Source: an uncultured Alphaproteobacteria bacterium (lineage in GTDB: Bacteria; Pseudomonadota; Alphaproteobacteria; Puniceispirillales; Marisalimonadaceae). Taken from it: DNA of 64,000 bases. A program made the position numbers and the translations under genes. The notes under the pieces are model-generated. The model made no database searches and was not told where the DNA came from. It saw nothing but the letters and a program-made list of their open reading frames with translations. Where the stretch lies: assembly GCA_937142855.1 (NCBI GenBank), contig CAKZQZ010000066.1, positions 1-64,000 on the forward strand, given 5' to 3'. Positions 26,638 through 53,505 of the stretch are shown one piece after another. Numbering within the stretch: the stretch's first letter is position 1; each line of letters begins with the position of its first letter.

Positions 26638-26666
26638 TTTAATCTCCTTTTAAAGCGAGTTTATTA

Positions 26667-26688
26667 AACATCCCATTATGGCGATGTT
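26667..26688 (-). promoter_or_regulatory. Leader hairpin/operator B before hsp20
   Basis: On the minus strand the sequence reads AACATC, GCCATAATGG, GATGTT, a 22-base inverted repeat with the core CCATAATGG. The outer arms differ from those of element A, but both pairs of arms are fully complementary, as if the base pairing, not the bases, were kept. It lies 30 bases upstream of the hsp20 start, so it could fold in the mRNA near the ribosome site or bind a protein as DNA. Confidence 0.6.
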
Positions 26689-26700
26689 ATTTTGTTAAAT

Positions 26701-26720
26701 GTAACCCATTATGGCGTTAC
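26701..26720 (-). promoter_or_regulatory. Leader hairpin/operator A before hsp20
   Basis: On the minus strand the sequence reads GTAACGCCATAATGGGTTAC, arms GTAAC/GTTAC around the same core GCCATAATGG as element B. The two cores are centred 33 bases apart (26710 and 26677), close to three helical turns. The element also lies 67 bases before the divergent monooxygenase gene, which it could affect if it is a DNA operator. Confidence 0.6.
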
Positions 26721-26727
26721 AATTTGT

Positions 26728-26755
26728 ATTTGGTATTGATTTAAAAAAAATCAAG
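26728..26755 (-). promoter_or_regulatory. Candidate heat-shock type promoter for hsp20
   Basis: Minus-strand CTTGAT (26755-26750), a 16-base spacer and CCAAAT (26733-26728). The CTTG-type -35 box agrees with alphaproteobacterial RpoH promoters; the -10 box agrees only in part. Transcription from here would include both leader hairpins. Confidence 0.35.
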
Positions 26756-26787
26756 AACTAATATAAAAAAAAATCGAGGAGACAATT

Positions 26788-28383
26788 TTGAGTAATAACA
26801 GGGTTTTAGACACAGTTATAGTTGGAGCAGGTTTTGCTGGAATGTATTCTCTTCATAAACAATTATCTGATGGCTTTAATGCAGAAATATTTGAAAAAGC
26901 AGATGATGTAGGTGGTACTTGGTATTGGAATAAATACCCGGGTGCAAGATGTGACATTGAAAGTATGGATTATTCGTATTCTTTTTCAGAAGAATTACAA
27001 CAAGAATGGAATTGGAAAGAAAAATATGGAACTCAACCTGAATTATTAAAGTATGCTCGTTTTGTTTCTAAGAAATTTAACTTAAGAGAAAAAATTAACT
27101 TTAAAACAACAATTATTAAAGCAAGCTTTATTAACAAAAAATGGAAAATTGAAACTGATAATAATATAATAATTGAATGTAAATATCTAGTTTTAGCTAC
27201 TGGTAATCTATCCACACCAAATACTCCAAAAATTAAAGGGATATCTAATTTCAAAGGAAAAATTTATCATACTGGTGCTTGGCCAAAAGAAATGCCTGTT
27301 TTCAAGGATAGAAAAGTTGGTATTATTGGAACAGGTTCATCTGGGGTACAGTCAATTCCAATAATTTCAGAAACTGCTGAGAAATTATTTGTCTTTCAAA
27401 GAACTGCAAACTTTAGTTTACCAGCAAGACATCACAAACTACCAGAAGACAAAAGGGAAAATTACAAAAAAGATTACAAAAAATATCGTGATCTAGCTAA
27501 AAATTCATCTTTTGGTATTGCAAAATACCAACCCCCTACAAAATCTGCATTTGATGTAAGTGATGATGAAAGAAATGATATTTATGAAAGAGCTTGGCGT
27601 GAAGGTGGTCAAGCAATGTTATTTGCATTCACTGATTTATTAACAAACGAAGAAGCTAACAAAACTGCTGCTGATTTTGTAAGAAATAAAATTAAGAAAA
27701 TAGTAAGGGACAAAGAAACAGCAGAAAAATTGTGTCCCAATGATCATCCTATTGGGACAAAAAGATTATGTTTAGATAGTAATTATTTCGAAACTTATAA
27801 TAAAGAAAATGTATCTCTTATAGACATTTCAAATCATCCAATTCAAGAAATAACTGACAATGGCTTAATTACTAATAATATTGAATATTCATTTGACGAC
27901 CTTGTTTTTGCTACAGGCTTTGATGCCATGACAGGTGCTGTTAATGCAATAGAAATCTTAAATGAAAAAAATATTAGTCTAAAGTCTATTTGGTCCAATG
28001 GTCCAAAGACATATTTAGGAATTATGGTATCTGAGTTTCCAAATTTATTTATGATTACGGGTCCGCAGAGCCCAGGTGTAAAAAGCCAAATGATTTTATC
28101 CATCGAGCAACATGTAGATTTTATTCATAACCTAATAATACATAAAAGAAATAATAAATATTATCAGGTTAATGCTAATAAAAATAAACAAGAAGAATGG
28201 GTCAATCATAATAACGAAGTAGCTAATGCTACTTTATATCCTTTGGCACACTCTTGGTATAACGGTGACAATATTGCTGGAAAGACTAGAAACTTTATGC
28301 CTTATGTTGGAGGTGTTGCAAATTACAAAAATATTTGTGATGAAAAAATAAAAAATAATTATGAAGGCTTTGAATTTTTATAA
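26788..28383 (+). CDS. Flavin-containing Baeyer-Villiger-type monooxygenase
   Basis: A 531-residue FAD/NADPH monooxygenase that would insert oxygen into a ketone. The FAD site is VGAGFAGMYSLHKQL, the NADPH site is GIIGTGSSGVQSIP, and the Baeyer-Villiger fingerprint FKGKIYHTGAWP lies between them. GGTWYWNKYPGARCDIES is typical of cyclohexanone-monooxygenase relatives. The start is TTG at 26788, set by CGAGGAGA (26775-26782). The next genes, an enolase-superfamily enzyme and a thioesterase, follow in the same direction with short gaps, suggesting one catabolic unit. Confidence 0.9.
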   Translation: MSNNRVLDTVIVGAGFAGMYSLHKQLSDGFNAEIFEKADDVGGTWYWNKYPGARCDIESMDYSYSFSEELQQEWNWKEKYGTQPELLKYARFVSKKFNLREKINFKTTIIKASFINKKWKIETDNNIIIECKYLVLATGNLSTPNTPKIKGISNFKGKIYHTGAWPKEMPVFKDRKVGIIGTGSSGVQSIPIISETAEKLFVFQRTANFSLPARHHKLPEDKRENYKKDYKKYRDLAKNSSFGIAKYQPPTKSAFDVSDDERNDIYERAWREGGQAMLFAFTDLLTNEEANKTAADFVRNKIKKIVRDKETAEKLCPNDHPIGTKRLCLDSNYFETYNKENVSLIDISNHPIQEITDNGLITNNIEYSFDDLVFATGFDAMTGAVNAIEILNEKNISLKSIWSNGPKTYLGIMVSEFPNLFMITGPQSPGVKSQMILSIEQHVDFIHNLIIHKRNNKYYQVNANKNKQEEWVNHNNEVANATLYPLAHSWYNGDNIAGKTRNFMPYVGGVANYKNICDEKIKNNYEGFEFL

Positions 28384-52561: not shown

Positions 52562-53505
52562 TTATCTCTTTCATATTCAGGAACATTAGACTGATCTTCA
52601 ACTTTTTCCCCTTTGTTGATATCAAAAAATGTTAAAATTGATACCGCCACAAATATTGAAGAAAAGGTACCTATTAATACCCCCCAGATCATAGCTAAAG
52701 CAAAGTCAGATAATACAGCACCGCCAAAAAAGAAAATTATAAATAATGCTATTAACGTTGTAACAGAGGTAATCACAGTCCTTGAAAGTGTTTCATTTAT
52801 TGATTTATTATAGATATAATAATGATCTTTTGACTTATAACGTCTTAAATTCTCTCTCACTCTATCAAAAATAACAACTGTATCGTTTATAGAGTACCCT
52901 GCAGTTGTTAAAATCGCTGCAATTGTAGCTAAATTAAATTCCAATTGTAAAAAAGAAAAAAGACCAATTGTGCTTATTACATCATGTATTAGAGCTATAA
53001 TGGCGGCTATCGAAAATTGCCATTCAAATCTAAACCATATGTAAACCATTATGGCTAATAAAGATAAAGAGACTGCATATATTCCAGCTATTTTTAATTC
53101 ATCACCAACCGTCGGGCCAACAAACTCAGATCTTCGAATGGAATAATCATTATCAATAAGTAATTTTACTTTTTCAATCATAGCAATTTGTTGCTTTTGA
53201 TCACCTTCTTGCTTTTGAATTCTTATTAAATAGTCCCCTTCTTTACCAAATTTTTGGATAGAAATTTCACCAGCTTTTAAGGTTAAAACCTTGTTTCTTA
53301 ATTCATTAATATTACTTTTTTCATAATTTTTAGCTCTAACCTCAAGCAAAATTCCACCTTTAAAATCAATGCCATAATTGAGATTGTTTAAAAAGAGACT
53401 TAGAAAAGTTCCTGATATAACCAATATAGAGAATAAAAATGCAAACTTCTTAATAGATAGAAAATCTATGTTAGTGTTTGATGGAATTAATCGTAATAAT
53501 TTCAT
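52558..53505 (-). CDS. secF: Protein-export membrane protein SecF
   Basis: An inner-membrane subunit of SecDF-YajC, 315 residues, six helices. The hallmark NYGIDFKGGILLEVRA lies in the first periplasmic domain; AGYSINDTVVIFDRVRENLR is the conserved SecF motif between helices 4 and 5. It uses the proton gradient to pull proteins out of the Sec channel. It follows secD by 2 bases. Confidence 0.97.
   Translation of the reverse strand: MKLLRLIPSNTNIDFLSIKKFAFLFSILVISGTFLSLFLNNLNYGIDFKGGILLEVRAKNYEKSNINELRNKVLTLKAGEISIQKFGKEGDYLIRIQKQEGDQKQQIAMIEKVKLLIDNDYSIRRSEFVGPTVGDELKIAGIYAVSLSLLAIMVYIWFRFEWQFSIAAIIALIHDVISTIGLFSFLQLEFNLATIAAILTTAGYSINDTVVIFDRVRENLRRYKSKDHYYIYNKSINETLSRTVITSVTTLIALFIIFFFGGAVLSDFALAMIWGVLIGTFSSIFVAVSILTFFDINKGEKVEDQSNVPEYERDN

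Follow-up and report, generated by a model that had tools for sequence, protein, structure and literature searches.

RNA thermometers of the ROSE type are recognized by a U(U/C)GCU sequence in the 3' hairpin that pairs imperfectly with the Shine–Dalgarno (SD) sequence (PMC3669281; PMC4166951), and a bulged G has been described as a further feature (PMC11342760). According to Krajewski et al. 2013 (PMC3669281), ROSE elements consist of two to four hairpins and single-hairpin versions have not been found; the same authors describe the role of the upstream hairpins as "not fully understood". In the Pseudomonas ROSE element, the upstream hairpin I was shown to stay closed on warming and was suggested to act as a 5'-end stabilizer (PMC3669281). 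A second layer of control is known from Escherichia coli, where IbpA acts as a translational repressor that binds its own 5' UTR, an activity that requires Arg93 together with an aromatic residue at position 34 (PMC10474464).

The hsp20 Locus and Its Leader

The window, as we call the whole stretch of 64,000 nucleotides under analysis, carries on its minus strand an hsp20 gene (26637–26215) that encodes a small heat shock protein (sHsp) of the IbpA type with 140 amino acids and lies behind a short leader. The product matched the Pfam HSP20 profile at 3e-17, and IbpA ranked best among the NCBIfam models with 118 bits, below the equivalog cut-off of 212. Its nearest named relatives were found in SCGC AAA536-G10 and in SAR116 single-cell genomes, which places the sequence in the SAR116 clade. 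A gene for an FAD monooxygenase (Pfam FMO-like) diverges from hsp20 on the plus strand (26788–28383) and lies outside the element described here; this gene is syntenic with hsp20 across the sampled genus (g1) and a sister genus (g3). The same genome also holds a second hsp20-like gene (L070, G000:C89:4158-4658), 35% identical to the first and devoid of a ROSE element.

The preliminary description of the leader had reported two hairpins with different but perfectly complementary arms around an identical core, and both the sequence and its folding agree with this. Hairpin I (26700–26721, minus strand) reads UGUAAC-G-CC-AUAAU-GG-GUUACA and hairpin II (26667–26688, minus strand) reads AACAUC-G-CC-AUAAU-GG-GAUGUU. 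The shared GCCATAATGG does not form a loop in either of them, as the G is a single-base bulge and the CC is paired with the GG. The bulged Gs, at 26715 and 26682, are 33 nt apart, in line with the distance between cores given earlier, and are conserved in 22/22 and 21/22 aligned leaders, respectively. Two perfect 5-bp hairpins sharing an identical 10-nt core never arose in 5000 dinucleotide shuffles of the leader, whose overall folding yielded z = -2.59 (2 of 200 shuffles were equally stable). A third exact copy of GCCATAATGG in the window, at 53046, is located within coding sequence and lacks arms of this kind. We also considered and rejected a repeat dispersed over the genome: there are 19 genomic copies of the core CCATAATGG, as many as of its reversed control, and elsewhere it has no arms.

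A third hairpin over the SD sequence (26644–26659, minus strand; CUC-G-CUUUAAAAGGAG), which the preliminary description had overlooked, is decisive for the assignment to ROSE. In this putative thermosensor, the anti-SD UCGCU (26658–26654) with its bulged G at 26656, invariant in 22/22 leaders, lies opposite the SD sequence AGGAG (26648–26644). Hairpin III is the weakest of the three, with a computed stability at 37 °C of -2.2 kcal/mol versus -7.2 kcal/mol for hairpins I and II. The predicted pairing of the SD sequence dropped only gradually, from 0.91 at 5 °C to 0.75 at 50 °C, as computed with nearest-neighbor models, which treat ROSE bulges poorly.

Upstream of the hairpins, the minus strand presents a -35-like box of the heat-shock (sigma-32) type, CTTGAT (26750–26755; mostly CTTGAA in relatives), followed 16 nt further on by a -10-like box, CCAAAT (26728–26733). 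A TTGA box, mostly as CTTGA, begins at a nearly constant 34–36 nt upstream of hairpin I in 30/30 leaders, and several of them conserve a CCATAT-like box after it (CCCATAT in L030). Boxes of this type would put the transcript start, which is a prediction from promoter geometry, at the base of hairpin I. A scan for sigma-70 promoters returned no match at the expected place, which fits a promoter of the heat-shock type.

Taken together, the sequence, its conservation and covariation, the promoter geometry, and a layout homologous to that of known elements make it very probable that the leader (26721–26638, minus strand) is a ROSE-like RNA thermometer controlling hsp20; the transcript start, the melting, and the control of translation are the parts of this reading that we infer.

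Conservation and Covariation Indicate Selected RNA Pairing

Comparison among relatives gave stronger evidence than the shuffles of the leader. The family orthologue set comprised 26 genomes with an hsp20 identity of 71% or more, and in all 26 orthologous leaders the three hairpins are kept at the start codon. Across 22 aligned leaders, standard pairs accounted for 99.0% of the pair cells, compared with 36–48% when the partners were slid against each other. Changes on both sides were found in seven pairs, four in hairpin I and three in hairpin II, a number that none of 500 shuffles reproduced, so that the earlier proposal of pairing under selection is borne out. Among the leaders of the genus, hairpin III is almost invariant, and covariation there therefore says little. 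When 25 matches were aligned by the model, nearly all of them from outside the training set and more distant, double changes appeared in 19 of 22 pairs with 98.6% of the cells paired, in an alignment that is fitted to the structure and thus biased towards it.

The kind of variation tolerated is informative as to which molecule is being paired. The 22 leaders contained 25 G.U cells and not a single A.C cell, and therefore it is the RNA of the hsp20 strand that is selected to pair; such an asymmetry is unexpected for a DNA palindrome or for an RNA transcribed from the other strand. This bears directly on the earlier suggestion that the two cores might be sites for a dimeric repressor on DNA, forming an operator shared with the divergent monooxygenase gene. 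The cores are indeed near-palindromic, their spacing in the window is 33 bp, and the divergent gene is conserved in the genus and in one sister genus. Nevertheless, the arms vary between sites and species while retaining their pairing, and the bulged Gs of hairpins I and II are anywhere between 29 and 42 nt apart, depending on the leader, with no fixed helical spacing. Furthermore, in the outer relatives (L023–L030) the monooxygenase gene is not beside hsp20 and the hairpin element is still there; the element thus follows hsp20 and not the monooxygenase, and the boxes of the promoter precede hairpin I as well as hairpin II. We consequently regard the operator as extremely unlikely.

The search of related hsp20 leaders with a covariance model, a check that had been proposed at the outset, was performed with a model trained on SAR116 leaders only. 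It gave matches in 51 of the 136 genomes of the order, and all 36 matches that allowed a check run up to the start codon of hsp20. The genome of the window itself has one convincing match, the window copy, followed by the next at 21.5 bits. On the computed evidence, the predicted start does not fall downstream of both hairpins, and their core and pairing are conserved in relatives, which were the two points on which the preliminary description had staked its proposal.

Comparison with Known ROSE Families

The closest described system is the E. coli ibpA element (RF01832, ROSE_2). It also precedes an IbpA-type sHsp gene and shows three consecutive hairpins with one bulged G per hairpin in the computed fold; the middle hairpin bears a CCAUNNUGG core and the last one pairs CUCGCU with AGGAG. 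It differs by an extra outer stem, GUAGCC/GGCUAC, on the E. coli side, and the SAR116 leader is AT-rich, reaching 23 bits in Rfam against a ROSE_2 cut-off of 65. The E. coli ibpA leader was scored by Rfam as ROSE_2 with 100.4 bits. In the opposite direction, the SAR116-only model applied to 5 kb of E. coli MG1655 produced a sole match, namely the ibpA leader, at 23.2 bits and with the three hairpins aligned; this independent match ties the element most clearly to ROSE.

The ROSE_3 family (RF02523) shares a bulged-G hairpin, GAUGCCG..CGGGUC, followed by ACUCGCU..AGGAG and AUGAC. Relatives of the window leader scored 25–30 bits with this model, the best at 30 bits falling short of the cut-off of 43, and the model has one upstream hairpin versus two in the SAR116 element. 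More generally, weak ROSE_2 and ROSE_3 matches were detected at the element in the window and in several relatives, all below the gathering score. At that score, ROSE_3 yielded nothing above the cut-off among genomes of the order, nor did ROSE and ROSE_3 across the class. The alphaproteobacterial ROSE family (RF00435), whose founding member is Bradyrhizobium ROSE1, gave sub-threshold matches of 37–42 bits (cut-off 45) in other alphaproteobacterial genomes; most of these matches have the same YGCC..GGG bulged-G hairpin at their beginning and GUUGCU..GGAGGAU at their end. This family differs from the window element in its middle hairpins, and the window was not matched in the sub-threshold search.

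Other systems that control heat-shock genes beside the promoter, CIRCE/HrcA and HAIR/HspR, are DNA operators of a different sequence, whereas the pairing evidence in SAR116 concerns RNA. The CIRCE operator has the consensus TTAGCACTC-N9-GAGTGCTAA, which was absent from 26638–26790, consistent with the mismatch to CIRCE noted earlier.

Three features that characterize the class are present in the window leader: UCGCU opposite AGGAG in the 3' hairpin, an invariant bulged G in the SD stem, and three covarying hairpins in the untranslated leader of an sHsp gene. Two further ones, a transcript start upstream of the hairpins from a sigma-32 promoter and temperature-dependent opening with translation, are predicted here from the position of the boxes and from calculated stabilities. 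Judged by these sequence features, we assign the window element to the ROSE class as a new member and not to a new kind of element. The earlier view of a new heat-responsive RNA element hence retains its heat-responsive RNA part, as a prediction, and loses its novelty to the ROSE signature and the ibpA-like three-hairpin layout. The contrast formerly drawn with the "usual single ROSE hairpin" arose from a misconception, given the two to four hairpins of ROSE elements (PMC3669281). Among the papers searched, none named both SAR116 and RNA thermometers.

Related leaders were also observed beyond this set. Over the class outside the order, three matches of the SAR116 covariance model (R1) fell below 0.01, of which two lie at sHsp genes and the third at rpoH. 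A ROSE-like leader in another alphaproteobacterial family (L165:1501-1584, plus strand, genome G338; 35.1 bits with R1) precedes a sigma-32 (rpoH) gene in place of an sHsp gene, in one genome only; it has UCUUGCUUAAUAAGGAGA over the SD sequence, and the preceding AAGAACUGCUGUAGCAAGGGUUCUU can form the same bulged-G hairpin. Among other candidates, the L171 match is terminator-like and was discarded as due to chance, and L172 (E 0.098) precedes an open reading frame. In another SAR116 family, three hsp20 leaders (L062, L066, and L088) finish with a hairpin of the ROSE type over the SD sequence, GCAUUGCUU..AAGGAGGAUGC; their upstream structure is quite different, and both R1 and Rfam missed them.

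Proposed Mechanism and Roles of the Upstream Hairpins

We propose that a heat-shock sigma factor would start the transcript at hairpin I or within a few bases of it. In the cool state, the UCGCU of hairpin III with its bulged G would mask the AGGAG SD sequence and block ribosome entry; on warming, this weakest hairpin would melt, by analogy with ROSE elements whose function has been measured, and hsp20 would be translated. Hairpins I and II would remain closed as a folding and stability platform for hairpin III, and may also offer a binding site for Hsp20.

Such a binding site could be the main function of hairpins I and II alongside the thermometer, with Hsp20 (IbpA) oligomers repressing their own synthesis until aggregates titrate them. 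The equivalent of Arg93 is present in the window Hsp20 and is R in 30/30 SAR116 orthologues, position 34 is F or Y, and a constant core with a bulged G between free arms is typical of hairpins read by proteins. However, the Arg97 position is Q in the window protein and in most orthologues, the same core might be kept for folding reasons, and the binding, putative in SAR116, has been demonstrated by experiment for gammaproteobacteria only. We consider this main role rather unlikely. Somewhat less doubtful, and still rather unlikely, is that hairpin I merely stabilizes the 5' end of the mRNA and takes no part in sensing, comparable to the suggestion made for Pseudomonas. Its place at the predicted 5' end in 30/30 leaders accords with this role, which leaves the invariant bulged G and the second copy of the hairpin unexplained.

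In three leaders from sister SAR116 genera (L051, L053, and L056), hairpin II contains the U(U/C)GCU motif as UUGCU opposite AGGAG with no start codon after it, apparently a decoy copy of the SD hairpin, and in L052 hairpin II has UCGCU opposite AGGAG. The bulged G common to all three hairpins, in combination with UUGCU/AGGAG in some hairpins II, suggests the reuse of one module. An improbable extension of this idea is that all three hairpins are copies of a bulged-G module (Y-G-C-Y ... R-G-G), the upstream hairpins of ROSE elements being duplicated thermosensor or protein-binding modules for graded or cooperative control, which might operate through the loading of several Hsp20 oligomers or through a standby 30S subunit.

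As a ROSE-like thermometer, the element would mean that the small-genome marine SAR116 clade keeps a ROSE thermometer before its IbpA-type chaperone, one that the Rfam models miss. The more than 50 strongly covarying leaders could mend the Rfam ROSE models, and the set as a whole provides natural variation for testing the role of the upstream ROSE hairpins.
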